Source: a virus. From it: a stretch of DNA of 38,893 nucleotides. The notes beneath the pieces are model-generated. The model made no database searches. It worked only from the letters and a program-made list of their open reading frames with translations, and was not told the origin of the DNA. The number at the start of each line of letters is the position of its first letter. The first letter of the stretch is position 1. Positions 5,009-38,091 of the stretch are shown here, piece by piece. The DNA lies in the IMG/VR virus record IMGVR_UViG_3300025818_000054, positions 1-38,893 of that record. One strand, written 5' to 3'. Made by a program: the position numbers and the translations under genes.

Positions 5009-5064
5009 CTTTGGCGAGTGGCAGACGGCCGGGAAGTTGCAGCTTCCCGGCCGTCGTCGTTTCA
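5009..5064 (-). repeat. Start-associated stem-loop repeat, copy B
   Basis: A perfect 13-bp stem (5024-5036 with 5043-5055, six-base loop) begins at the stop of the 43-aa membrane gene and is followed on the minus strand by CACTCGCCAAAG. In this copy the gene start (4958) lies about 50 bases further on and has its own AAGGA. It has the same arrangement as copies A and C. Confidence 0.75.
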
Positions 5065-5358: not shown

Positions 5359-5487
5359 TCAGCCTCCCGCGTTCATGATCAGCTGGCCGAGGACGGCCAG
5401 CGCGATGCCGCCAGCGGAGCCAATGGTCAACCAAACGCAGAGCGTCCGGACGAGCAGCGCGATGCCGATGACGTAAGCGCGCAGCAT
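5359..5487 (-). CDS. Small membrane protein, 42 aa (paralogue of 5489-5659)
   Basis: Single hydrophobic protein starting MLRAYVIGIALLVRTLCVWL. The core RTLCVWLTIGSAG parallels RTFCVWFTIGFAG of the gene just upstream, and the DNA of both shares the same pattern over about 45 bases, so they are tandem duplicates. GGGAGG in the upstream gene's end serves as the ribosome-binding site. Confidence 0.7.
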   Translation of the reverse strand: MLRAYVIGIALLVRTLCVWLTIGSAGGIALAVLGQLIMNAGG

Positions 5488-5488
5488 C

Positions 5489-5659
5489 TCAGCCTCCCAG
5501 CAGCGTAAGCAGGAAGGCGCCAGCGAAGCCAATGGTGAACCAGACGCAGAACGTCCGGGCGAACCGCTTCAGCGCGTCCCGGCGCTGCTGCTCCAGAACG
5601 TGCAGGATCTGGTCGTGGGTGATGTTGCGGCTGATGAACTCGTAGTCGTAGCGGGTCAT
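5489..5659 (-). CDS. Small membrane protein, 56 aa
   Basis: A charged N-terminal half (RYDYEFISRNITHDQILHVL, then EQQRRDALKRFA) and a C-terminal TM helix (CVWFTIGFAGAFLLTLLGG). The start has GGAGG within the conserved tail of repeat C. It is a paralogue of the next gene, which has lost or never had the charged domain. Confidence 0.75.
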   Translation of the reverse strand: MTRYDYEFISRNITHDQILHVLEQQRRDALKRFARTFCVWFTIGFAGAFLLTLLGG

Positions 5660-5668
5660 GTGCTCCTC

Positions 5669-5727
5669 CTTGGCGAGTGATGCCCGGAAGCCGATGGCCT
5701 CCAGCTTCCGGGCGGTGGTGTTGTTCA
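5669..5727 (-). repeat. Start-associated stem-loop repeat, copy C
   Basis: On the minus strand: TGAACAAC, a perfect 10-bp stem (5713-5704 with 5691-5682, loop of 12), then CACTCGCCAAGGAGG before the ATG at 5659. The arrangement matches copies A and B; the TGA is also the stop of a 13-codon frame upstream. Confidence 0.75.
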
Positions 5728-5766
5728 GAAGCGGGGCTGTTCGTTCGGCTTGTTCAGGCATTGCAT
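5725..5766 (-). CDS. Possible 13-aa peptide MQCLNKPNEQPRF
   Basis: A 13-codon frame with an unusually strong ribosome-binding site (AAAGGAGG, six-base spacing) and a stop that forms the first element of repeat C. It may be a leader peptide or a microprotein; the site could also be a remnant of a lost gene. Confidence 0.4.
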   Translation of the reverse strand: MQCLNKPNEQPRF

Positions 5767-5796
5767 GGCTGGCCTCCTTTTCCAGTGAGCGCGGCG

Positions 5797-6345
5797 GCTG
5801 TATGCCCCTTCCGCTTGCGTTTCTCTGAGTTGAGGTCGAGACCGCTCAAGGTGACGGCCGGCCGTCCGGGGCAGCCGGGGGCGTTCCGAAGGAACGTCCG
5901 CGGCGAGGCTCGGCAACTGTTGAACGGGCAGTCTGGCGGTAGGCGACGGTGATGAGGCGCGCGGAGGCGAGCGCGTGACCGTTTGGTCGCGCGGTCGCTG
6001 AGCACGCCGACCCTGCTCCAGCCCACGGGGGCGTTCCGTTCAAGAGTTGTCGGGCCGTCCCCGGGCGAGCCGGGCGGCGCCTTGAACGGGCTCGACCGTG
6101 ACGCACATCTTCCTCGCGGAAGGGGCATACAGCAGCAGCGCAGCAGGTCAGGGGCCGGCTCGCCCGTGGCGAGAGGCCCCGGGTTACAGCGGGTGCGGCT
6201 GCCGCGCTGTCACGGGGAACGCCCGCGCAGCGGGCGTAGCCTGCGGTCCCCGGGACAGCCCATCAGCAGGGCACGCGGACGTCGGGCCGACCGGAGCCCG
6301 TGGCGAAGGGAGGCGCGTCGGCCCGCGATGCCCGTGCCCCGGGGC
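5797..6345 (+). ncRNA. Candidate large structured RNA, gene-free stretch
   Basis: No credible gene lies between about 5767 and 6356. The stretch instead holds nested helices. A perfect 18-bp pair (5797-5814 with 6116-6133) encloses a 17-bp pair with 15 matches (5911-5927 with 6037-6053) and a 9-bp hairpin at 5879-5899. Outside it lie a two-part hairpin at 6151-6180, a long arm (6206-6218 with 6247-6259, enclosing an 8-bp hairpin), and a domain closed by 6269-6275/6333-6339 and 6283-6291/6317-6325. Several mismatches become G-U pairs only if the plus strand is transcribed. Size and ornateness recall the large phage RNAs GOLLD and ROOL, but no similarity to them can be claimed. It could instead be an origin. 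Confidence 0.6.
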
Positions 6346-6356
6346 GCCGCAGGCAA

Positions 6357-6737
6357 TCAGTCGGCGGGGTTGCGCTTGCGGTCGGCATGGGCGGCACGGC
6401 GGTGGACGAACGCCCACCAGGCGGCCGCATGGGCCGGCGCCAGCTGGGCACGCCGGGCACGCCATTCGATGCCGGCCATCACGTCGCACAGCAGCCGGCC
6501 CCGGTCGGGCATGTCGCCCTGCCACCAGCGCAGCAAGATCCGCTGCTCGGCGTCGGGCTCGGCGGGCGGGGCCATGATGGTGTCCCACACCCACGTCTCG
6601 CGCTCCAGGTAGCGGCGCACGTCGGCGGGGATCGGCGGCCCGGCACGCTCCGCCCCGCGCTTCTGGGCGGCGAGGCGGATGGCGGCACGGGACTGGGCAT
6701 GCAGGATGCGGGTAAAGCCGTTGTGCTTGTCGTTCAT
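6357..6737 (-). CDS. Hypothetical protein, 126 aa
   Basis: Tryptophan-rich helical protein (ETWVWDTIMAPPAEPDAEQR, then LLRWWQGDMPDRGRLLCDVM, then AAAWWAFVHRRAAHADRKR). No family is recognised. It is the first gene of the accessory minus operon, downstream of operator O2. The leader has no clear Shine-Dalgarno before ATG 6737. Confidence 0.65.
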   Translation of the reverse strand: MNDKHNGFTRILHAQSRAAIRLAAQKRGAERAGPPIPADVRRYLERETWVWDTIMAPPAEPDAEQRILLRWWQGDMPDRGRLLCDVMAGIEWRARRAQLAPAHAAAWWAFVHRRAAHADRKRNPAD

Positions 6738-6824
6738 CGGAAAAAGTTCCAGCGACAGGAGCGAGGGGGTTGACGCCGAGCGGGTTCTCTGTCAGCGTCC
6801 CCGCGCGATCACATTACACGCAGA

Positions 6825-7023: not shown

Positions 7024-7500
7024 GTGAGCGGCATGGCACTCACCCAACTTCAGGAAGCGTTCTGTCAGGAGTTCGTCGCAACCGGCGGTAACCGCACGGA
7101 AGCTGCGGAACGCGCAGGCTACCAGGGCGGGCGCAACGCATGCTCGGTGGCCGGAGCGCGATTGATCACGCAGGCCAATATCCAGCAGCGCATCTTCGAG
7201 TTGACGCGCGAACGCTTTGTCGCAGACGCTCCCACGGGCCGCGCGGTGATGCTTGAACTTGCGACGACTGCGAAGTCTGAGCTCGTACGCTTCCACGCTG
7301 CCAAGGATCTGCTGGATCGTGCAGGACACCAGCCCACGCAGGTTATCGACGTGCGCAAGAGCCTGGCCCCCTCCGACGTTCAGGCCCTTGAGGATAGGGT
7401 GCGCCAGCTTGTCGCAGCCCTCGGCATCACCGCCATCGACGTGACGCCCACGGCATTACCGCAGCACTCGGACAAGACTGTCGAGAGGCCCGAAAGCTGA
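7024..7500 (+). CDS. Terminase small subunit
   Basis: The 158-aa protein begins (from GTG 7024; ATG 7033 is the alternative) with the typical small-terminase opening ALTQLQEAFCQEFVATGGNR, then TEAAERAGYQ. This is a HTH that recognises the packaging site and recruits the large subunit. It is the first gene of the late operon. Its C-terminal region (SDVQALEDRVRQLVAALGI) is helical. The family assignment rests on motif style and on the neighbouring large subunit. Confidence 0.85.
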   Translation: MSGMALTQLQEAFCQEFVATGGNRTEAAERAGYQGGRNACSVAGARLITQANIQQRIFELTRERFVADAPTGRAVMLELATTAKSELVRFHAAKDLLDRAGHQPTQVIDVRKSLAPSDVQALEDRVRQLVAALGITAIDVTPTALPQHSDKTVERPES

Positions 7501-7761: not shown

Positions 7762-7814
7762 CTGGGTGCCTCCGGTGCATGTCGGGGTGGCTATTCCGCC
7801 GGCATCCTCCTGCC

Positions 7815-9308
7815 ATGTCCAGTCGCGAAGAGCAGCTTGCGGAGCTGCATGCGCTCATGGAGCAGCTGGCCGACGCGAAGGCGCGGCTCGGCTGCCGGGG
7901 TTACCGGCCGTTCCCGAAGCAGCAGGAGTTCCACCGTCTCGGGGCGGCGGTGCGCGAGCGGCTGTTCATCGCCGGCAACCAGCTGGGCAAGACGTTCGCG
8001 GGCGCCAACGAGGCGGCCCTGCATGCGACCGGCCTGTACCCGGAGGGCTGGGACGGGCGGCGGTTCGACCGGCCGACGGTGGGCTGGGTGACCGGGCTGT
8101 CCGGCGAGCAGACCCGTGACAACGCGCAGCGGCTGCTGCTGGGCCGCGGCCGGGACTACGGCACTGGGGCTCTGCCGTCGGATACGCTAATCGGCTCGCC
8201 TCAGCTGGCGCGCGGCGTGGCGGACGCGGTGGACTACGTGAAGGTGCGGCATGTCTCCGGCGGCACCAGCTACATCTACTTCAAGAGCTACGAGAAGGGC
8301 CGCGAGCGCATCCAGGGCGAGACGATCGACTGGGCGTGGTGCGACGAGGAGCCCGACGAGAAGACCTACACCGAGATCGTGACGCGGACGAACGCGGTCT
8401 TGGGGCCGGTGTGGATCACGTTCACGCCGCTGCTGGGCATGTCGAACGTGGTGCGCCGGTTCTTGCAGTCGCCGCCGGAGGAGCGGCAGTACCGCGGCTA
8501 CGTCACCATGACGATCGACGACGTGCCGCACCTGTCGGCGGAGCAGCGCGCGGCGATCATCGCCGGCTACCCGGAGTGGGAGCGCGACGCCCGTGCGCGC
8601 GGCGTGCCGATGCTGGGCACCGGCCGGATCTACCCGGTCGACGAGAACCGGCTGAAGTTCGACTTGTCCGACTTTCCCAAGGGGGTGCCGTCGCACTGGC
8701 CGCGCATTGCCGGCATGGACTTCGGCCACTGGGACCATCCGCTGGCGTGGGTGGCGCTAGCCTGGGACCGCGAGGCCGACACGCTCTGGCTCTACGACTG
8801 CTATCGGGAGAGCCGACTGATTGAGGCGGTGCACCAGGCGGCTGCGAAGGAGCGGCTGGGGCCGGCGTTGCCGGTGGCGTGGCCGCACGACGGCCACCAG
8901 CACGACCGCAACACCGGCGTGCCGCTGGCGACAAAATGGCGGCAGGCGGGCCTGAACATGCTGCCGGAGCATGCCCAGTGGGAGGACGGCTCGAACGGCG
9001 TGGAGCCGGGCCTGTCGATGCTGCTGGACATGATGATGACCGGCCGGTTCCGGGTGGCGGCGCACCTGAGCCAATGGTGGGAGGAGTACCGCACCTATCA
9101 CCGGGAGAGCGGCAAGGTGGTCAAGACGTCGGACGACCTGCTGGATGCGACCCGCTACGCGGTCATGATGCTGCGCTACGCCCGCGCGGTGAATGGCCGC
9201 GTCGAGGCGCCGCGTGTCATCCGTTCGCTGTCGGATGCGGCAGCAGGAGTGATGCGTGGCCTCCCCAGGCTCACGGCAACAGGGTCTCGGCCTCGGCGAC
9301 GCGATTGA
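7815..9308 (+). CDS. Terminase large subunit
   Basis: The 497-aa packaging motor has Walker A AGNQLGKT (53-60), Walker B IDWAWCDEE (171-179), a coupling motif TFTP (202-205) and an RNase H-type nuclease start GMDFG (300-304). The ATPase drives DNA into the procapsid and the nuclease cuts the concatemer. The frame is open from ATG 7779; the start at 7815 (MSSREEQ) looks closer to homologues, but neither has a good ribosome-binding site. Confidence 0.95.
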   Translation: MSSREEQLAELHALMEQLADAKARLGCRGYRPFPKQQEFHRLGAAVRERLFIAGNQLGKTFAGANEAALHATGLYPEGWDGRRFDRPTVGWVTGLSGEQTRDNAQRLLLGRGRDYGTGALPSDTLIGSPQLARGVADAVDYVKVRHVSGGTSYIYFKSYEKGRERIQGETIDWAWCDEEPDEKTYTEIVTRTNAVLGPVWITFTPLLGMSNVVRRFLQSPPEERQYRGYVTMTIDDVPHLSAEQRAAIIAGYPEWERDARARGVPMLGTGRIYPVDENRLKFDLSDFPKGVPSHWPRIAGMDFGHWDHPLAWVALAWDREADTLWLYDCYRESRLIEAVHQAAAKERLGPALPVAWPHDGHQHDRNTGVPLATKWRQAGLNMLPEHAQWEDGSNGVEPGLSMLLDMMMTGRFRVAAHLSQWWEEYRTYHRESGKVVKTSDDLLDATRYAVMMLRYARAVNGRVEAPRVIRSLSDAAAGVMRGLPRLTATGSRPRRRD

Positions 9309-10239: not shown

Positions 10240-10403
10240 CGTTCCGCCTGCCTCTGCCCGGCCGCCGCTGGCTGGTGCTGTCGTGGATCGCGGACTACCG
10301 CGGTTCGACGCGCGGCCTGAGCCGGGGCCGCAATTGGCGTCAGCTGGTGTTCCCGCTGCTGGGGCGCCGGCACGCCGCGATGATCGCATGGTGGGGGATC
10401 TGA
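10236..10403 (+). CDS. Small basic protein, 55 aa
   Basis: Very Arg- and Trp-rich (PGRRWLVLSWIADYRGSTRG). The start overlaps the previous stop (ATGA) and the stop overlaps the portal ATG (TGATG), so it is locked into the operon. No family is recognised. Confidence 0.65.
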   Translation: MTFRLPLPGRRWLVLSWIADYRGSTRGLSRGRNWRQLVFPLLGRRHAAMIAWWGI

Positions 10404-11977
10404 TGGCGACCGACACCGACCGCCTCGTCGAACGCTACGACGAGCTGCTGATGGACCGTCAGCCGTGGCACGGCATCTGGCAGGAGATCTGCGACAACCT
10501 GATGCCGTCGAAGGCGACCATCGACACCGCCCGCGCGCCCGGCTCCCGCATCACCGACGAACGCTGGTCGAGCGCCGGCGCCCGCGCCCACGCCATGCTG
10601 GCGGCGCACTTGCAGGGCACCCTGACCTCAAAGGCGTTCCAGTGGTTCTTCCTGCGCGCCGCGGCGGCCGACGACGCCGCCAAGCAATGGCTCCAGCAGG
10701 CCGAGCGCATCGTGTTCGACGCCATTAACGCCTCGAACTTCCAAAGCCAGATGCACGAGACCTACCTGGATCTGGTCGGCCTCGGCACCGCCAGCCTGTG
10801 GGTCGAGCAGGCGCCCGGCCGGGAACCGTGGAACGGTCTGCTGTTTACCTCCTACTCGATCCACACCTACGTGTTCGAGGAGGACGCCTGGGGCCGCGCC
10901 AGTGCCTGCGCGCGCAGCATGATGCTGAACGGCCGGCAGCTGCGCCAGCGCTACCCTGACCTGCCGGCGCAGCTGAAGACGCTGATCAACAAGGAGCCGC
11001 GCCGCAAGCACGAGGTGATCCACTGGGTCTACCGGCGCGAGGAGCCAAAGGACCTGGAGAAGCCCTACGCCTCCGTCCACATCTGGAAGGAGAAGCGCCG
11101 CGTGCTGGCGGAGGCCGGCTACGACGAGTTCCCGGTGATGATCCCGCGCTGGTCGAAGACCACGACCGAGCCTTACGGCCACGGCCCCGGCGAGCTGGCC
11201 CTGCCGGAGATGCGGGTGCTCAACAAGGTCGTCGAGCTGGACCTGACGGCGGCCGCCAAGAACATCGACCCGCCGATGAAGTACCGCGCTGGCGGCATCG
11301 TCGGCGAGGAAGTCGACATGCGCTCGGGCGGCATGACCGCGGTGCAGTCGATGGACGACCTGATGCCGATCAACTCCGGCTACCAGCCGCAGATCGCGCA
11401 GCTGAAGGTGCAGGAGCTGCGCACCGCGATCCAGCAGACCTTTTTCGCCGACCAGCTGGAACTGCCGCCGTTCACCTCGCAGACCATGACGGCGACCGAG
11501 GTGCAGGTGCGCTACGAGCTGATGCAGCGCATTCTCGGGCCGACGCTGGGCCGCATCGAGACCGAGCTGCTGGCGCCGCTGGTGAGCCGGTGCTTCCGGC
11601 TGCTGCTGCGCGCCGGCCGGCTGGGCCAGCCGCCGCAGAGCCTTCAGGGCCAGGAAACCTCGATCCACTACGAGGGGCCGCTGGCCCGCGCCGAGCGCCG
11701 CGCCGAGGTCAACAAGGTGCAGGTGTTCATCCAGGGTGCTGCGCCGTTCATGCAGATCGCGCCCGAGGTCACTGACCTGATCGACGCCGACAAGGCGGTG
11801 CGGCTGCTGGCCGAGGCCGAGAACGTCGACCGGACCCTGATCCGCTCCGACGAGCAGGTGCAGGCGATCCGCACCAGCCGGCAGCAGCAGCAGGCGACAG
11901 CGCAGGGCATCGACCAGGGCAAAGCGCTGTCGGAAACCGCCCTCAACCTGAGCCGCGCGCAAGGAGTTGCCGCATGA
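10403..11977 (+). CDS. Portal (head-to-tail connector), T7-type
   Basis: The 524-aa protein of the head-to-tail connector family (T7 gp8-like) forms the portal ring at one capsid vertex. Diagnostic segments are the N-terminal RYDELLMDRQPWHGIWQEI, the LDLVGLGTASLWVEQ segment, and FPVMIPRWSKTTTEPYGHGP with the following ELALPEMRVLNKVVE. A C-terminal Gln-rich helix is also present. ATG 10388 is an alternative start. It is followed by the small Bbp19-like gene, as in related podoviruses. Confidence 0.95.
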   Translation: MATDTDRLVERYDELLMDRQPWHGIWQEICDNLMPSKATIDTARAPGSRITDERWSSAGARAHAMLAAHLQGTLTSKAFQWFFLRAAAADDAAKQWLQQAERIVFDAINASNFQSQMHETYLDLVGLGTASLWVEQAPGREPWNGLLFTSYSIHTYVFEEDAWGRASACARSMMLNGRQLRQRYPDLPAQLKTLINKEPRRKHEVIHWVYRREEPKDLEKPYASVHIWKEKRRVLAEAGYDEFPVMIPRWSKTTTEPYGHGPGELALPEMRVLNKVVELDLTAAAKNIDPPMKYRAGGIVGEEVDMRSGGMTAVQSMDDLMPINSGYQPQIAQLKVQELRTAIQQTFFADQLELPPFTSQTMTATEVQVRYELMQRILGPTLGRIETELLAPLVSRCFRLLLRAGRLGQPPQSLQGQETSIHYEGPLARAERRAEVNKVQVFIQGAAPFMQIAPEVTDLIDADKAVRLLAEAENVDRTLIRSDEQVQAIRTSRQQQQATAQGIDQGKALSETALNLSRAQGVAA

Positions 11978-22500: not shown

Positions 22501-22640
22501 CCCAAATGCAGCGCCGCGACTTCCTGCGCGAGACGCCGCCTGAAATGGACCCCAACCGTTTCCTGCGGCGCGAGCACATGGAAATCCAGACGGACCTGAA
22601 GGTCGGCGGCGCCCCCCAGAGCGGGATGACCCTGCGATGA
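19590..22640 (+). CDS. Internal core protein (gp15 position)
   Basis: The 1016-aa helical protein, rich in Ala, Arg, Glu and Gln, has many heptad-like stretches. Its position second among the three large genes before the fibre matches T7 gp15, part of the ejected DNA-translocation channel. Residues about 560-850 include globular segments (LGLIFRT-like, then SFNSVGLAAGAMLRALSPNR). The assignment is by order, size and composition. Confidence 0.7.
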   Translation: MALGPRTRGAPQLTFQGVGVNAQAPLISLSAGQTIDGRADAFRALSDSLIATADESRRDVFQVARGEMQRRLDDIYAEVTADPDKRADWRRTMQDRGEEVLQETLESSGLGGSYAEVLRLDLREASSRAHRQSQDVSYQLQDEAFRRQQAGVEMAAYEAAVRTELEQRPDAYRSWSEAYERRIDAKARELAEKYGQGSEMHRKMLTLDLGRSVAVGENAMRQQQLQVRREAETAQAKEMVENSLLVAGTSAGQIGPMATRLADFLGTTSIIEPERNRIVNDFLERAHQQRIQGSMARDPMSVTPEAINANPYLSGGAKLSLTQTLAALQAQAQSQGRAAAAARLLDVEAQEKRVLSGIATSLSVQPAEAQQAIAMIAQRMRDLAPGLSPDRAQRVLARADELEAGIAKAAETHFAVRDTLANANSLETFDRLAEEFKTSPAFRSPDYEPFRGDFDALQKNLRRQLVREKGGAGEMDWFGGPDSDGAVEYWEDRMTDRVDGRGNPVDVTQPGVERVRWLLEEAFDQPLQPGQPLTGRDVLLATIESARHIPDPMKGALRQSIDTALRQPLTAASAARIGGYIRFLQDASQMGPNAWSGDRLLSQMHDIGLAFPTLPPDQLAAKAQAWLSATGGGEPRQLALGSEAEQRELAGQMILSTLSGVDKIGLIFRTPAIAETLIDTVLARARYEVSVNRLLLPADASQQDIDRIALQQAASQIRQNVAFRRIKVQGYALADRFIMESQSPQSYYGKDIHGHEDWVWDALKADLYAARSTPADELAAAGTSQAADMQSKMVRVRAQLTMTEGGWSNLPLSFNSVGLAAGAMLRALSPNRNIGALVRGETTVEPGLSEGVVAAGTARDFTLAEAVDMGIVMAEPIPGSRAPGDPEGRPAFRVFYYNEAGEMVDLMPDGYWAPTRSSYKDWLKNGPKLAVETFDAANYPDTLQGIMKEDRARWEAQRRALADQPPPWLDPQMQRRDFLRETPPEMDPNRFLRREHMEIQTDLKVGGAPQSGMTLR

Positions 22641-25600
22641 CCCCGCGCCTCGAATTCGACTTCGGCGGCCAGGCGGCACTCGACCGCTTCCGCCTGCCCG
22701 ATCCGATCCACGTCTTCGAGTACCCGGACGGCACGGAGTTCCGGCATCTGGCGTTCGCCACAGTGATCACGACCAATACGGTCGGCGCTGCGCTGAACCG
22801 CTTCTGGCCGTTCGACATCGACGGCGACGCCACCAAGCCGTTCGAGCTGGACGAGGTGATGGGCACGCCGTTCGAGCGGTTCCTGCCGTACTTCACCGAC
22901 GTCACCAACCAGTACGAGGCGGCGAAAGTGAAGGGCCGGATCGCCCGCGAGGAGGCGTCGCGGCAGCTGCTGAAAAAGACCGGCTTCGGCATCGCCGGCC
23001 CAATGGCGCTCGCCTCCGGCACCGTGCTCGATCCGGTATTCATCTTGGGCTCGGCCTACGGCAAGACCGTCGCCAACCGCGGCTACCTGTTCACCACGAT
23101 GGCCGAGCGGCAGCTGATGCGGGAAGGCAAGCTGACCCACCAGCCGCTTGGCTTCATGCACATGGCGGCGGCGGACTACGTCACGGCGTTCGCGCAGGCA
23201 AACACCACGGCGACCATGCAGACGACCATGACCAGCGAGGAATACTGGTCGCAGATCGCGCTGATCGAAGCCGGCGGCATGGCGTTGCTGGCGCTGGGCG
23301 CGATCGGCGACGGCATCCGGCTAACGTCATCGAAGGTGATCAACCGCACGCGCGCCGATGCGACCGATGCGCTGGGCCGCCACCATGCGGCAGACCGTGC
23401 CGAAGTGGGCGGCGGCGGCGGTCCCCGCCGGGGCGTCGACGGGAGGTTCGCCAGCGGTCTCGCCCGGCGCTCCTCTCCGTACTCGGCGCAAGAGGCCCGC
23501 CCGCGCGACCGACGGGGCGCCTTCCACGGCCCGTCCTATGACATGGACGAGCCGCGCGGCATGTTCTCGCCGGACAGCCGGCGCTGGCGGCGGGACGGCC
23601 GTTCCCGGGGGCGGGCGCCGACGCAGCCGGGCGCCTCGCCGCAGCCCAGCCCGACCGGCGTCGACCCGACTGGCTGGGTGGGCGATCTGGTCGGGCGCTA
23701 CTCGCCGATCATGCGGACGCTGAACAGCGGCAGCCGGCTGGTGGCCGAGACGGCCGAGCAGCTGGCAGAGGCTGGCTTCTGGCTGCGCAAGAACCGCGGC
23801 GGCGTCGCGACCGCCCAGTCTGTCGAGACGCTGGCGAAGACTCACCGCATCCGCGTCGTCGAGGCGCTGAACGCCATGGACGAGACGTTTTTGTCCTACC
23901 GCCGGCAGCAGGCCGGGCGGGGGCCAAAGCGGGCCGACAGCCTGCGCTTCGCCGCCGGCGACCTCGCCGACCGGGCGACCGGGCGCACGCGCACGACCCT
24001 GACCCACCAGGAGTTCTACGAGGCGGTCACCGACACCATGTGGTCGGGCCGCCCGCACGCCATCGGCGAGGTGAACCAGGCGGCGACGGCCATGCGCCGG
24101 TTCTACGACGGCTACGCGGACGAGCTGATGCAGGCCGGCCTTGTCGCGGAGAAGCGCGCGGACTACGCGCCGACGCTGTACGACGTGGCGCAGCTGGCTG
24201 CTCGGCAAGATGAGTTTGTGACGCGGGTGCAGATGTGGCAGCGCGCCTACCTGCCAGCCGAGAAACAGTTGAGCGAGCCGGCGATCCGGCAGGCGATCCG
24301 GAACATCCTGCGCGACGAGCCGCCGCGCGCCGGCCCCGACAACATTGTCCGCAACCCGTTCCACGAGATCGACATCGGAATCCCGCGCACAGAGATCGCC
24401 GACTTCCTCGTCCGCGACGCGAGCGAGCTTGCCCGGCGCTACGGCCGGTCTGTGGCGGCCGATCTTGAGTTGCAGCGCAAGTTCGGCGACGTCGACATGA
24501 CCGGGCCGATGGACCGCATCAAGCGCGACTACGACGGGCGGATCGCCGCCGCCGCAACCCCGGAAGAAGCGGCGGCCCTGCGGGCTGCGCGTGACAGCGA
24601 CGTCGAGGATCTGGTGGCGATGCGCGACCTGATCCGCGGCACCTACCGGGTGGACCAGGACCCGCTGAGCCTGTCGTCGCGCGCTGCGCGCATCGGCATC
24701 GAGTGGTCGCACCTGGCGCTGATGGGCGGCGCCACGCTGGCGGCGATCCCTGATCTGGGCCGCATCGTCATGGTGAACGGCATGAAGGACACCTTCCAGG
24801 TCCTCAAGCTGATGCGGGCCGACATCGACGCCTTCCGCCGCGCCGGCGCCGAGGGGAAGCTGGCCGGCACGGCGCTGGAAATGGCGCTCAACAGCCGGGT
24901 CGCCTCGCTGGTCTACGGCGGCGACATGCCGCGCTACTACACGCCGTTCGAGCGGACCCTGGGGCAGGTCACCAACGGGTTTTTCGTCGCCAATCTGCTG
25001 AGCCCGTGGAACGCGATGATCAAGCAGTTCACGGGCATCGTCTCCGGCCACAAGCTGATCGAGGCGGTCCAGAAGATCGCCGACGGCACTATCGACGCGC
25101 AGGCCCGCACCTGGGCGGCGGCGGCCGGCATCGACGCGCGCAACGCCCGCAGCATCGCTCGGCAGCTGCAGCAGCACGGCGAAACGGTGCACGGCGTCCA
25201 CCTGCCAAACACCCACCTGTGGGACGACGTGGATGCCCAGCGCTTGTACCGCGCCGCGCTAGCGCGCGAGGTGGACAGCATCATTGTGACACCGTCTGCC
25301 GGCGAGCTGCCTCTGGCCGCGCACACGCCGCTCGGTCGCCTGCTATTCCTTTACAAGAAGTTCGCCATGTCGGCGGCCCAGCGGATCATGGTGGGTGGCC
25401 TGCAGCAGCGTGACGGCCGCGCCCTGATGGGCGCCTCCATGATGGTGTTTCTGGGCGGCATGGTGGCGAGCCTGCGCGACGAGATGCGCAGCAGCGGCAG
25501 CAACATACGGCACGCGGACGACAGCCTCTGGCTAACCGACTTCCTTGTCGAGGGCGTCGACCGCTCCGGCGTCACCGGCTGGCTGGCGGACGTCAACAAC

Positions 25601-25885
25601 GCGGTGGAGACCCTGAGCGGACGGACGCTGGGTGTCCGGCCGGCGCTTGGCGTGGGTGAAAGCTTCCCGCCCAGCTTCGACTACCAACTGGGAGCCGTGT
25701 CGCCGGTATTTGGTCTGGCGGCCCGCGCCACGGACACGCTGGCGGACATGATCTCGGGTGCATCGTCAGCGGAGGTCGCGCAGGGTGCAATGCGCCTCGT
25801 ACCTGGGCAGAACCTGCCTTATTGGGGGCTCGCTAACATGGCGCACACCAGCTCGCTGTTCACGGCCGTGCGAGACGCCCCGTGA
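22637..25885 (+). CDS. Internal core protein (gp16 position)
   Basis: The 1082-aa protein is at the T7 gp16 position, the largest ejected protein. Residues about 105-235 and 680-960 hold hydrophobic helices suited to a membrane channel (FGIAGPMALASGTVLDPVFI; LGRLLFLYKKFAMSAAQRIM). Between them, about residues 250-345, lies an Arg/Gly/Pro-rich low-complexity linker. No N-terminal lytic transglycosylase motif (E-S) of the T7 kind is visible, so peptidoglycan cleavage during entry would need another protein. Confidence 0.7.
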   Translation: MTPRLEFDFGGQAALDRFRLPDPIHVFEYPDGTEFRHLAFATVITTNTVGAALNRFWPFDIDGDATKPFELDEVMGTPFERFLPYFTDVTNQYEAAKVKGRIAREEASRQLLKKTGFGIAGPMALASGTVLDPVFILGSAYGKTVANRGYLFTTMAERQLMREGKLTHQPLGFMHMAAADYVTAFAQANTTATMQTTMTSEEYWSQIALIEAGGMALLALGAIGDGIRLTSSKVINRTRADATDALGRHHAADRAEVGGGGGPRRGVDGRFASGLARRSSPYSAQEARPRDRRGAFHGPSYDMDEPRGMFSPDSRRWRRDGRSRGRAPTQPGASPQPSPTGVDPTGWVGDLVGRYSPIMRTLNSGSRLVAETAEQLAEAGFWLRKNRGGVATAQSVETLAKTHRIRVVEALNAMDETFLSYRRQQAGRGPKRADSLRFAAGDLADRATGRTRTTLTHQEFYEAVTDTMWSGRPHAIGEVNQAATAMRRFYDGYADELMQAGLVAEKRADYAPTLYDVAQLAARQDEFVTRVQMWQRAYLPAEKQLSEPAIRQAIRNILRDEPPRAGPDNIVRNPFHEIDIGIPRTEIADFLVRDASELARRYGRSVAADLELQRKFGDVDMTGPMDRIKRDYDGRIAAAATPEEAAALRAARDSDVEDLVAMRDLIRGTYRVDQDPLSLSSRAARIGIEWSHLALMGGATLAAIPDLGRIVMVNGMKDTFQVLKLMRADIDAFRRAGAEGKLAGTALEMALNSRVASLVYGGDMPRYYTPFERTLGQVTNGFFVANLLSPWNAMIKQFTGIVSGHKLIEAVQKIADGTIDAQARTWAAAAGIDARNARSIARQLQQHGETVHGVHLPNTHLWDDVDAQRLYRAALAREVDSIIVTPSAGELPLAAHTPLGRLLFLYKKFAMSAAQRIMVGGLQQRDGRALMGASMMVFLGGMVASLRDEMRSSGSNIRHADDSLWLTDFLVEGVDRSGVTGWLADVNNAVETLSGRTLGVRPALGVGESFPPSFDYQLGAVSPVFGLAARATDTLADMISGASSAEVAQGAMRLVPGQNLPYWGLANMAHTSSLFTAVRDAP

Positions 25886-33566: not shown

Positions 33567-34111
33567 GCTGCTCCCTTTGGCGCCTTGCGCGCCTGGTCGA
33601 GCCGGTCGAGGCGCTTGTCCACTTCGGCCAGCAGCGTCTTGATGTCGACAACGTCCTTGCGGATCGCCTCGACCTCGGGATCGGCGCGGATCGGCCCGAA
33701 AGCCTCTTCGCGCAGGGCGGTGATCGCCGCCGCCGCCACACCAACTTCTTCGGCGATGAGCCGGTCAGATCGGCCGGCGCCGTAGCTGCCGGCGGCATCG
33801 TCAAAATACTGTTCGAGCAGACCCATCGCTTGCCGGAGCTGCCGGGGATCGAGCGGGGACGGCTGCTTCGTCGTCGCGGCCTTGGGTGCCGTCATGAAAC
33901 ACTCCGGGCAGATTGGCTTGATCGGGGCGCGGCCGCTGAACGACCAGCCCTGCCGCGCCAGTTTCTGGATGAAAACGTCGAGCGGCAGGTGCTTCGAGCC
34001 GGTGACAATGCCGTCCTCGCCGCAGGTGGCGCAGCTGGTGCGGGTGCCGACCTGCCCGGTCTGCCGGTCGATAAACGAGCGCGTTTCGAGGGAGACGCGA
34101 CGCGACGTCAT
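33563..34111 (-). CDS. Hypothetical protein with zinc-type cysteines, 182 aa
   Basis: Residues about 20-75 contain CATCGEDG and a later CPEC, a likely zinc ribbon. The C-terminal half has a HTH-like segment (RSDRLIAEEVGVAAAAITAL) and a coiled coil (DVVDIKTLLAEVDKRLDRLD). The ATG overlaps the integrase stop. A DNA-binding accessory role is plausible; no family is recognised. Confidence 0.65.
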   Translation of the reverse strand: MTSRRVSLETRSFIDRQTGQVGTRTSCATCGEDGIVTGSKHLPLDVFIQKLARQGWSFSGRAPIKPICPECFMTAPKAATTKQPSPLDPRQLRQAMGLLEQYFDDAAGSYGAGRSDRLIAEEVGVAAAAITALREEAFGPIRADPEVEAIRKDVVDIKTLLAEVDKRLDRLDQARKAPKGAA

Positions 34112-35127
34112 AACCGTTCGATCTCGCGGGCGAGAAAGTCGTCGGTCAGGTGGGCGTACCGTCTGACCATGCGGTCGTCGCGCCAGCCGCAGATCTTCTT
34201 CAGGGCCTCGGTGTGTCCTCCCTTCATCAGGAACCAGCTGGCGAAGTGGTGGCGCCAGTCGTGCACGGTGAAATCCTCGATGCCGGCTTTCTTGCAGGCG
34301 GTGGCGTGCGCCTTGGCGATCGGCGTGCCGCCGGTGACGCGGTGGTCGCGGTAGGGCTGGCCTAGCCGGTTCAGGAAGACGTGGCCGCGCGCCGGCTGCC
34401 AGGCGCAGCCATGCTGGAGCTGCATGGCCTCCAGCTCCGCGCGCACGCGGACGTGCATCGGCACGTAGCGCGGCGCCCGCGACTTGGTGTGGCGCAGCGT
34501 GATCTGGCCGCGCTCCCAGTTGACGTCGGCTAGCCGCAGCCGCAGCGCCTCGCCGATGCGGGCGCCCGAGAAGCACAGAAACACCGCCAGCGGCCGGACG
34601 TGGACAGCGTAGCTTTCCAGCAGCTTCTTCTGCTCCTTGAGGCTGAGCCAGTGCGGCGGCGGCGGTTCCGCTCTTCGGCGCGGCACCTTGAGCGCGGTGA
34701 ACGTTTGGCCGGCGCCGGCATCGTTCAGGACGGCCATGAGCGTGGACCTCCATCGGTTGACGGTGTCGTCGGCAAGGCCCGCCAGCCGGCTGCTGGCGAA
34801 GCCGCTCCAGGCGTCGGGCACCCGGTCGCAGGTAATCGGCCCGAACGCGGTCAGCAACGACTGCAGCTGCTTTAGGTCGTTGCGGTGCAGCTGTGGCCTG
34901 GAGGCCGTGTAGCGGTCTACCGCGAGCGCGAACGAGGGGACGGCGTGGCCGCCTTCCGGCCGGTGCAGCCATTCGAGGAGTTCGGCTTCGCGGCGGATGC
35001 GGACCTGCTCGGCAAGCTCGCGTCGATCCGTGCCTGTAGTCTCGCGGACACGGACGATGCGGCATCCGAGCCGGACAGTGCCTTTGAGGTGCCAGCGGGC
35101 ACCGCGCTTGACGAGGGTGAGGGGCAT
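34108..35127 (-). CDS. int: Tyrosine integrase
   Basis: The 339-aa tyrosine recombinase has an N-terminal arm-binding part, a SAM-like core-binding domain (about 65-155) and a catalytic domain with R190 (SGARIGEALRL), K215 (HTKSRAP), H289/R292 (HDWRHH), W315 (GWRDDRM) and nucleophile Y324 (RRYAHL). It would join attP (30683-30730) to a host tRNA-Gly gene. It sits inside the recombination operon rather than next to attP. The gene upstream (HTH) overlaps it by about 210 bases. Confidence 0.95.
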   Translation of the reverse strand: MPLTLVKRGARWHLKGTVRLGCRIVRVRETTGTDRRELAEQVRIRREAELLEWLHRPEGGHAVPSFALAVDRYTASRPQLHRNDLKQLQSLLTAFGPITCDRVPDAWSGFASSRLAGLADDTVNRWRSTLMAVLNDAGAGQTFTALKVPRRRAEPPPPHWLSLKEQKKLLESYAVHVRPLAVFLCFSGARIGEALRLRLADVNWERGQITLRHTKSRAPRYVPMHVRVRAELEAMQLQHGCAWQPARGHVFLNRLGQPYRDHRVTGGTPIAKAHATACKKAGIEDFTVHDWRHHFASWFLMKGGHTEALKKICGWRDDRMVRRYAHLTDDFLAREIERL

Positions 35128-35766: not shown

Positions 35767-36058
35767 AGGCCTTCTCCATTGTCGTCATGATGTGGGCGAA
35801 GTGATCCTCGAACTGCGCTGCGAGGTGCTGGAACTGCTCGATGTCCTTCAGCTTCGAGAACGCCACGGCGAGCGCGGCGTGCAGCACCATTAGGGCGGGC
35901 TGAACGCCGTGGAGCCGGGCGGTTTCGTTGGTGAGCGCCAGCACGTCGTCGACGGCGTGCAGGAACTCGTTGCGGGCGATCTCGCCGCGCAGGGCGGGCT
36001 GCCGCGCCGCGCCGTCCAGCGCGTCGCGCAGCAGCCGGGCGACCTGATCGTCAGGCAT
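35744..36058 (-). CDS. Hypothetical protein, 104 aa
   Basis: All-helical protein (MPDDQVARLLRDALDGAARQ, then LHGVQPALMVLHAALAVAFS, then LKDIEQFQHLAAQFEDHFAH) between ERF and SSB. The ATG lies inside the ERF stop region and its end overlaps the ssb start. It may partner the recombination proteins; no family is recognised. Confidence 0.65.
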   Translation of the reverse strand: MPDDQVARLLRDALDGAARQPALRGEIARNEFLHAVDDVLALTNETARLHGVQPALMVLHAALAVAFSKLKDIEQFQHLAAQFEDHFAHIMTTMEKAYGWFEPR

Positions 36059-36815
36059 TGGGGTTGCGGGCTTCGTCGAAGTCGGCGTTGTCGCGCTTGT
36101 GCTGGACAATCGCCGCCTTGCGCTTCCGGTACTCGTGCACCAGCAGCTTGAAGCCCTGCGGGTCGTTCTCCTTGACCCCGTCGGTTGCCTCCTTGTTGCG
36201 CTCCATGTAGCCATCGAGGTCATCTATGGTCTCGCACCGGAGCATCCCGGCGATCAGCTCGATCCGTTTGGCGTCGTAGGCCGGGTTGGGCCGGACCGGC
36301 TGCGGCGGCGCCGTGGGCCGGCCGGAGGCGGCGTTGCCGTCGTCGTCGTCGGGCGCCACGCCGACCATCGCCGCCAGGGCGTAGCGCCGGCCGTAGGTAA
36401 TCGCCGAGCCGACGCCCTGGGGGTCGTCCTTGGTCGGCCGCAGCCACAGGGTGCTCTCGATGCTGGCGCCGGCCTCGTGGCCGATCACCGTGGTAATGCC
36501 GACCTTGCCGTCGTCAAACGTCGGCATCTGGATGACGCACAAACCGTTGGAAGTAAGCGCGTCGCGGCAGGCGTCGACCACCTCGGCGAGGTCGGCGTAG
36601 CGGCTCTTGAAGTGGGGGTTCTGCGACGACTTGGCGGCGTGCTCCATCGCCGCCTGCGCCTTGGCGAGCGCGGCGTACAGCGGGCCGAGGTTGATGGTGG
36701 GGGACGACGTCGGCCGGGGCGCCGGCAGCTCGCCGAACCGCTCGGGGACGTGCGGAAGAGCGCCGGTGATTGCGGCGGCGGCGGCCCCCGCGGTGCGGGG
36801 CAGGGTCTCGTTCAT
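36051..36815 (-). CDS. erf: ERF-family single-strand annealing protein
   Basis: The 254-aa protein has the ERF core: LAKAQAAMEHAAKSSQNPHF and KSRYADLAEVVDACRDALTS, then TVIGHEAGASIESTLWLRPT, then QGVGSAITYGRRYALAAMVG. It anneals complementary ssDNA, working with the exonuclease encoded two genes upstream. A charged C-terminal region (about 200-254) follows a linker. The start overlaps the previous stop (TAATG). Confidence 0.9.
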   Translation of the reverse strand: MNETLPRTAGAAAAAITGALPHVPERFGELPAPRPTSSPTINLGPLYAALAKAQAAMEHAAKSSQNPHFKSRYADLAEVVDACRDALTSNGLCVIQMPTFDDGKVGITTVIGHEAGASIESTLWLRPTKDDPQGVGSAITYGRRYALAAMVGVAPDDDDGNAASGRPTAPPQPVRPNPAYDAKRIELIAGMLRCETIDDLDGYMERNKEATDGVKENDPQGFKLLVHEYRKRKAAIVQHKRDNADFDEARNPNA

Positions 36816-37120
36816 TACTGAATTTCCTTCTTGTCGATCCCGAGGGCGTCCCAGAGGATCACCACCAGGTCGTCGGTCATTTCGGTGTAGTCTTCGGGGC
36901 GGGCGTCGACCTTCATGCCTTTGTAGTAAGACAAGGACGCGACCATGACCGCAAGCATGCACATTGGCGTGTTCTGCAGATGCGGCGCAATCTTGCCAAC
37001 GATGAAGTCGAGGATGCGCTGGGAGTGCGGGGTCACCAGGTCGATCAACTGCTTGAAGTCGGCGATTTCCTTGTAGCTGACTTCGACGTCAAACGCGGGG
37101 TCGCGCGACATGTCGGTCAT
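36815..37120 (-). CDS. Hypothetical protein, 101 aa
   Basis: Small acidic protein with a helical core (KQLIDLVTPHSQRILDFIVG, then MCMLAVMVASLSYYKGMKVD). AAGGAGG precedes the ATG, which overlaps the exonuclease stop. The location between exonuclease and ERF suggests a link to recombination; nothing more is visible. Confidence 0.65.
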   Translation of the reverse strand: MTDMSRDPAFDVEVSYKEIADFKQLIDLVTPHSQRILDFIVGKIAPHLQNTPMCMLAVMVASLSYYKGMKVDARPEDYTEMTDDLVVILWDALGIDKKEIQ

Positions 37121-38091
37121 GGAGCCTCCTTGATCCTGAGCGCGCCTTTGGCGTCGCGGGTGATCTCGATGCCGTGGCCGAACGCGTGGGCCACCACGGC
37201 GGGATTGCCGTCCTGATCGGCGGTCGTCTCGTTGACGATGGCCTTCAGTTTCTCCACTGCCTTGGCGTGCCGCTTCGCCGCCGGGCCGTCGTCCAGCCAG
37301 CTAACAGCCGCGGTGGCCCACTCGTTGTTGCCGGTCATGTCGCGCTCAATGCGCCTGGTCTTCACTTCCGTGCGGGCGACGGCGGTGTCTTCGGCGGCCA
37401 TGTCGGCGGCCATGCCGGAAGGGCGCCGGCGCTCGACTACGCGGGTCCAGAACTCCAGCTCGGCGAGGTAGAGCCGGTCCTGGTAGTCGGCGTCGGCGTA
37501 GACCACCTCCCACCAGTGGTCGGAATTGCCGACAAAGACCGAAAGCACGCAGGCCGGCAGGCCGGTGACGGCGAGGTTGTGCTGGACCTGCGGGTAATAG
37601 CTCTGGACGAAGGCGGCCTTGTCCTTGCCGGTGTACGGGTTGGTGTGCTTGGCCTCAGCCAGCCACCAGTTGCCGTCGTCGCCGACGATCAGCGCGTCGG
37701 GCCGGCACAGCCGCCAGACGTCGGCATGGTCGATGACGGTGGTCTCGTAGTATTCCGGCGCATTGCGGTCGGGCGAGAACTCGACTTGCCGGCTAAAGCC
37801 GGCGGCAATGTGCTCGAAAGAATGGGAGGAGTTAATGGCCGGAATGCCACCGCAACGGATCACGAGACTGTCCATCGCCTTCGACAGCCAGCGCAGGTTC
37901 AGGGCTTCGGTGGCAAGGCCCATCTGCACGCGCAGCACGCCGGACAGGTCCTCCGGCGTCACCGCGCCGGTCTTCTCGTCGTAGAGCCGGACCAGGTCGC
38001 CTTTCATGATGCGGGTGGCGTCCGAGCCGCCGAGGCCGCGGATGCCGTCAACCGCCGGCAGGCCGGCGAAGTCGTCCAGGGCGGCGCTCAC
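37117..38091 (-). CDS. YqaJ-type viral exonuclease
   Basis: The 324-aa protein has PD-(D/E)XK motifs: GGSDA (21-25), E62 in GLATEALNLRW, RPDALI with D132, LAEAK with E146 and K148, and YYPQVQHN (165-172). This matches the YqaJ/lambda-exonuclease group, which resects dsDNA ends 5' to 3' to feed the annealing protein. The C-terminal 100 residues are helical and family-specific. GTG start. Confidence 0.85.
   Translation of the reverse strand: MSAALDDFAGLPAVDGIRGLGGSDATRIMKGDLVRLYDEKTGAVTPEDLSGVLRVQMGLATEALNLRWLSKAMDSLVIRCGGIPAINSSHSFEHIAAGFSRQVEFSPDRNAPEYYETTVIDHADVWRLCRPDALIVGDDGNWWLAEAKHTNPYTGKDKAAFVQSYYPQVQHNLAVTGLPACVLSVFVGNSDHWWEVVYADADYQDRLYLAELEFWTRVVERRRPSGMAADMAAEDTAVARTEVKTRRIERDMTGNNEWATAAVSWLDDGPAAKRHAKAVEKLKAIVNETTADQDGNPAVVAHAFGHGIEITRDAKGALRIKEAP

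Follow-up and report, generated by a model that had tools for sequence, protein, structure and literature searches.

What does a temperate phage keep between its minus-strand genes and its structural operon, in a block without any credible gene but with an unusual density of inverted repeats? The question arises from a 38.9-kb IMG/VR virus record of a temperate podovirus (about 69% GC), the whole of which was analysed and is referred to here as the window. A sequence-only reading of its positions 5797-6345 had proposed a large and ornate RNA, read from the plus strand and hence opposite to the neighboring genes, with an origin or a packaging-related fold as the alternative. Our analysis upholds the proposal of a large structured plus-strand RNA: the fold is stable, the region is non-coding, and relatives of the phage have, at the corresponding position, strongly covarying RNAs of the same architecture. 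We consider it very likely that the element is a functional structured RNA, probably one transcribed from the plus strand.

The first structural gene to follow the RNA on the plus strand is that of the small terminase subunit TerS, which is of the Terminase_2 type (7024-7500; phrog_51, E 1.5e-15; PF03592, E 3.4e-11). Beyond it, on the same strand, lie the genes of the large terminase subunit TerL (7779-9308; PF03237 and PF17289), of the portal or head-tail connector (10283-11977) and of an internal virion protein (22637-25885). The TerL protein, which carries an RNase H-like nuclease domain, served us to find and place the relatives of the phage. The minus strand encodes, at the other end of the window, an integrase (34108-35127), Erf (36051-36962) and a RecE-like exonuclease (37117-38091). 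The 3' end of the RNA is abutted by an antiparallel gene of 126 amino acids (6357-6737, minus strand), which is coding-like in its GC content by codon position (0.75/0.56/0.92) and for which family and homologue searches gave neither a family match nor a homologue. On the upstream side, and divergent from the RNA, is a small membrane-protein-like gene (5489-5659, minus strand) with a AAGGAGGAG ribosome-binding site and a GC3 of 0.91. Neither a sigma-70-like promoter nor a terminator was found at the RNA, and the 38.9 kb hold no tRNA or tmRNA gene.

The minus-strand genes upstream present some features of their own. Two adjacent small genes (5365-5660, minus strand) share a repeated stretch (ccaatggt.aacca.acgcag..cgtccgg), and are apparently the product of a tandem duplication of a small membrane-protein gene. 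Also between minus-strand genes, an inverted repeat with perfect 13-bp arms around a 6-nt loop (5024-5055; GACGGCCGGGAAG TTGCAG CTTCCCGGCCGTC) is probably a terminator-like hairpin. At the edge of the RNA (5682-5780, minus strand), an AAGGAGG is followed by a 13-codon frame (MQCLNKPNEQPRF), by a hairpin (GCCCGGAAGC/GCTTCCGGGC) and then by the next gene, a layout that looks like a leader-peptide arrangement.

The structured region reaches slightly further than the block first delimited, to about 5768-6354 (plus strand, some 590 nt, with approximate ends), an extent supported by its folding z score, by codon-position GC and by its standing as an outlier within the genome. Its core is a nested rod (5768-6159), in which 5768-5871 pairs with 6059-6159, and a domain of 3' hairpins comes after it. 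The perfect 18-bp pair that was noticed at the outset is real (5797-5814 with 6116-6133, 301 nt apart), and it belongs to a longer pair of 26-nt arms (5789-5814 with 6116-6141) that are 92% complementary. These arms lie within the two strands of the outer rod, 5768-5814 and 6116-6159, with a pair probability of 1.0 for 5800-6130. The rod continues with 5826-5871 on its 5' strand and 6059-6105 on its 3' strand, each the partner of the other in the minimum free energy (MFE) structure; even blastn aligns the two sides of the element with one another (5789-5871 against 6059-6141, 75%). Between outer and inner rod, the 5' strand bears a side hairpin (5874-5904, pair probability 1.0), which contains the predicted 9-bp hairpin 5879-5899 at a probability of about 1. 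The inner rod (5907-6056, pair probabilities 0.999-1.0) includes the second nested pair of the earlier description (5907-5928 with 6035-6056, 12 + 9 pairs including G-U), a small hairpin (6021-6032) and an apical hairpin at 5972-5993, previously placed at 5971-5994 and likewise formed with a probability of about 1.

The 3' domain (6160-6354, z -3.3) is less settled. All three of the hairpins originally proposed there (6151-6180, 6206-6259 and 6269-6339) can form, but a fold containing them together is about 10 kcal/mol worse than the MFE structure (-379.1 versus -388.8 kcal/mol), which instead pairs 6150-6159 with 5768-5778 and has hairpins at 6160-6172, 6177-6217 and 6219-6237, followed by a long stem within 6239-6354 (6239-6254 with 6338-6354). 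Because the model prefers these other pairings, and because near-equal alternatives exist, the fold of this domain is uncertain.

Is such a structure more than the composition of a GC-rich genome would give? The plus strand of 5760-6360 folds at -388.8 kcal/mol, with a z score of -9.9 against shuffled sequences, and the minus strand at z -7.6 (20 shuffles each). For the rod domain (5765-6162) the values are -10.4 on the plus and -8.3 on the minus strand, and no shuffle out of 100 reached the stability of the rod. The 3' domain by itself, on the plus strand, was more stable than every one of 200 shuffles. When the entire 38.9 kb was scanned in 400-nt segments, the region of the RNA, at z -6.7, was the sole strong outlier, the next-best value being -3.0. 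The absence of a coding frame is likewise borne out: real genes of this phage have a GC2 of about 0.5 and a GC3 of about 0.9, whereas the open reading frames over the RNA, with a GC2 of 0.65-0.83, do not have the codon-position signature of the genome. The argument that imperfect pairs become wobbles only on the plus strand holds in part. There are 15 G-U pairs in the plus-strand fold against 6 in that of the minus strand, but the excess is small when the pairing is defined blind to wobbles (G-U to A-C ratios of 6:2 in one count and of 7:5 in another). On the evidence of the window alone, the plus strand is thus favored, not proven.

Searches for the sequence itself returned little. A cmscan of the window gave no match to any Rfam family at the gathering thresholds, so that the suggested comparison with the GOLLD, ROOL and OLE models was negative; relaxing the cutoff to E <= 5 for 5600-6800 brought up a single chance match, to CRISPR-DR28, and none to GOLLD, ROOL, OLE or pRNA. 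Blastn revealed no homologue of the RNA in phages or plasmids, blastn and nhmmer across the loci of the relatives found nothing significant, and the three exact 16-mer matches in IMG/VR had no further similarity to it. Short GC-rich matches in 13 bacterial genomes were set aside, as those inspected fall in apparent coding sequence. In the literature, we found no RNA of such a type described beside a terminase. Since the DNA searches were empty, relatives were collected by means of TerL and of TerS; in 397 genomes of a single order, searching with TerL brought no useful addition. Among 2,133 segments upstream of TerL in these relatives, the two foremost folding outliers were the window and a second phage, IMGVR_UViG_3300020356_000023 (hereafter L052), with two relatives of the latter, L136 and L137, within the top seven rows. 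A blind search of the relatives' loci for self-complementary rods ranked L052 (1370-1720) first and the window fourth among all rows.

The RNA of L052 lies on the plus strand directly upstream of TerS (1320-1955, about 640 nt) and also folds better on that strand (z -9.1 versus -6.0). A further phage, L133, has the same RNA, and L136 and L137 have diverged copies of it. In L052, L136 and L137, the RNA fills the entire divergent gap between the genes, its 3' end about 40 nt before the start of TerS. The consensus energy of these three (alifold) has a z of -13.1 against column shuffles, and it is better on the plus than on the minus strand (-199.6 versus -154.3). In their alignment, 19 pairs are changed on both sides compared with 6.5 +/- 2.0 in shuffles, and 94% of the cells are paired compared with at most 45% when the partners are slid, counts that favor the structure inasmuch as it was derived from the same three sequences, a shuffle of the 3' letters being the fairer control. 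Certain G-U pairs, moreover, are invariant on one strand. Divergence is unevenly spread along the molecule: between L052 and L136, identity is 93% in the outer rod and 90% in the 3' stem-loop, and it is least in the inner rod (67%), whose apical stem in L052 is swapped for a different one in L136 and L137. Third codon positions of TerS are 64% identical, and the outer rod and the 3' part of the RNA are therefore better conserved than the synonymous positions of the adjacent gene. The compensatory changes, the conservation and the strand preference together argue that the element of this clade is a selected plus-strand RNA.

How far can this conclusion be extended to the window? The two RNAs agree in place, strand and size, and both have an outer rod, an inner rod, a 3' stem domain and, some 100 nt away from the base, a side hairpin. 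Their mountain plots correlate at 0.97, against a mean of 0.33 for random folds, none of 40 being as high; this comparison is post hoc and used ends set by hand. The same architecture, defined from L052 as an outer rod, a 5' side hairpin, an inner rod and a 3' hairpin domain, is present in the window, also on a post hoc comparison, and so is the position: the RNA is 0.67 kb upstream of a TerS of the Terminase_2 type, on the plus strand, with one antiparallel gene between them. The L052 RNA differs in that the 3' side of its rod bears additional small hairpins and in that it directly abuts TerS, and the two have no detectable sequence similarity. R1, a covariance model built on the 3' domain of L052, finds L052, L136 and L137 only; its best score in the window is 4.5 bits (E 0.77), and it matched none of the other loci either. 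What the two RNAs share is therefore the same build, and common descent would be no more than a possibility; the compensatory changes are those of the L052 clade, the searches having found no homologue of the window RNA.

Other relatives fill the same slot in different ways. In L152, which represents a third lineage, TerS is directly preceded by a non-coding leader that is structured on the plus strand (z -3.6 versus -1.3 on the minus strand) and is cut by the end of the contig. L134 and L135 are without the L052-type RNA although their TerS is 94% identical; they have there about 320 nt of other sequence, apparently non-coding and weakly structured (z -2.4). In L134 (2116-2435) this unrelated and weaker rod lies between the same two genes that flank the 640-nt RNA in L052, as if one element had been replaced by another. 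The five rows that were labelled as having the RNA (the window, L152, L052, L136 and, despite its weak element, L134) lie clustered on the TerL tree, with two changes required against 4.7 when shuffled. They belong to a group of nine rows (support 89/94) with L053, L063 and L055/L056, in which L053 and L063 are without upstream sequence and the window is on a long TerL branch of unsure placement. L055, a close neighbor in this tree, lacks an RNA of this kind ahead of TerS; just downstream of the gene, it has a structured stretch (1430-1720, z about -3.7 on both strands).

When 19 TerS leaders were ranked by regression score, no such structure was found in those more distant phages with the same type of TerS and enough upstream sequence; the leader of L062, for example, is ordinary (z -1.1). 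In L072, the region upstream of TerS (1-311), where the contig begins, is structured (z -3.3) and contains a hairpin with a perfect 18-bp arm (CCTGACGGATGACGGATC / GATCCGTCATCCGTCAGG). Several candidate rods were discarded. Those of L115 (10511-11040) and L130 (1507-1726) scored high, but lie away from TerS. The former, on a contig of a TerL-related phage, consists of 65-nt inverted repeats (86% identity) separated by about 470 nt, which may represent an insertion element or an inverted duplication; the latter includes a perfect 22-bp inverted repeat (1564-1672; GTTTGCGACGTTTGCGACGTTT) 4.4 kb upstream of TerL, with a second hairpin within it. The rod of L129 (2580-3060) reached a z of only -2.9, and L192, L195 and L178 had gene-like frames or ordinary hairpins.

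Several explanations of the locus must be weighed against each other. The RNA could form the untranslated 5' leader of TerS mRNA, acting in cis either on late transcription, by antitermination as with the HK022 put RNA, or on TerS translation. The short distance of about 40 nt to TerS and the filled divergent gap in L052, L136 and L137, the L152 structure that abuts the gene and the location of all the structural genes downstream on the same strand are as such a leader would have them. In the window, however, a purely cis-acting leader of TerS fits poorly because the coding-like minus-strand gene 6357-6737 separates the two; the nearly identical TerS of L134 does without the same RNA; and at about 600 nt the RNA greatly exceeds the size usual for put-like elements. 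We thus regard control in cis as unlikely, if worth serious consideration. The functional molecule might instead be the complementary strand, serving the early minus-strand operon as a regulatory leader with its 3' end against a ribosome-binding site. The minus strand does fold well (z -7.6, and -8.3 for the rod), and the structure is bordered by an AAGGAGG of that strand (about 5774-5780), and in L052 by a GGAG-type minus-strand site at the same edge. The plus strand is nonetheless the better one in the window and clearly so in L052 and L152, and the 15 versus 6 G-U pairs point the same way; a minus-strand leader is accordingly given a small probability.

The proximity of the terminase invites two further interpretations. 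Because the RNA adjoins it in three lineages, a role in the DNA-packaging motor similar to that of the phi29 pRNA can be envisaged, the more so as phi29-type pRNAs too are described as keeping their fold during sequence turnover (PMC12670572). Against this, no Rfam family matches, pRNA included, and the RNA measures about 590 nt rather than 174; these phages encode both terminase subunits, the large one with an RNase H-like nuclease domain, whereas the pRNA is described as peculiar to the phi29 group (PMC11476376); the slot holds a different sequence in L134, and an antiparallel gene stands between the RNA and TerS in the window. A packaging RNA is, in our judgment, improbable. The other interpretation is that of a DNA-level element, such as a pac or cos site, an origin or a transposon-like inverted repeat, which merely resembles an RNA. 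Pac or cos sites can lie at a long inverted repeat by the terminase. Here the complementarity is nested from end to end and interrupted by bulges and side hairpins; the L052 relatives maintain the pairing through compensatory changes, and G-U pairs are invariant in them on one strand. This same-strand covariation and the G-U pairs favor RNA over DNA and thus over the origin fold, and a DNA element seems to us very improbable.

On balance, then, we lean towards a fast-evolving, structural non-coding plus-strand RNA of about 590 nt in a temperate podovirus, one of a similarly built but sequence-divergent set located beside TerS. Such an RNA would arise as part of the late (terminase) transcript or just ahead of it; it might be freed by an RNase III-like cleavage in the double-stranded rod and could then act in trans during late infection, as a stable structural RNA or within an RNA-protein particle. 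The outer rod and the 3' domain would be its working part, and the inner rod a tolerant spacer. The trans-acting mode is proposed tentatively. A bolder proposal, possible if rather doubtful, is that this podovirus lineage has a fixed slot by TerS for a functional rod RNA, the sequence of which is replaced while shape, strand and place persist; this would constitute a new class tied to the terminase or to the late genes, possibly to packaging. Phages have few large structured RNAs, and even the best known of them still await a function. A family with a fixed place by the terminase, a conserved outer part and a fast-changing inner one offers a point of entry, since the neighboring gene hints at the timing and the partners of the RNA. 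Should packaging require it, a pRNA-like part would exist outside the phi29 group; if not, temperate phages would have a new class of large structural RNA.

Comparison with known systems leads to a similar position. The put RNAs of HK022 and the late leader of lambda share with it a possible place ahead of a late or long operon; the window RNA is far larger and has a gene intervening before TerS. The phi29 pRNA, of about 120-174 nt, is bound to the prohead connector and needed for DNA packaging. It too is a phage RNA positioned by packaging genes, in which the fold stays while the sequence varies; the differences are those of size, of Rfam membership and of the terminase already described. The suggestion that GOLLD and ROOL, which form RNA-only multimeric nanocages, are the closest known concept survives as a matter of kind: like them, the window RNA is several hundred nucleotides long, phage-encoded and elaborately folded, and has no protein product. 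It is, however, not GOLLD, ROOL or OLE. No Rfam match supports such an identity, and its site is beside a terminase in a window without tRNAs, whereas GOLLD and ROOL are often near tRNA islands (PMC12286853). In a prediction of nested pairs, one long rod dominates it, unlike the pseudoknotted and multi-branched GOLLD and ROOL. Reminiscent of GOLLD is also the arrangement of a more variable part 5' of a better conserved 3' one (PMC12286853). We would thus class the window RNA as a new large RNA of phages, kin in kind to the ornate RNAs and a member of none of them.
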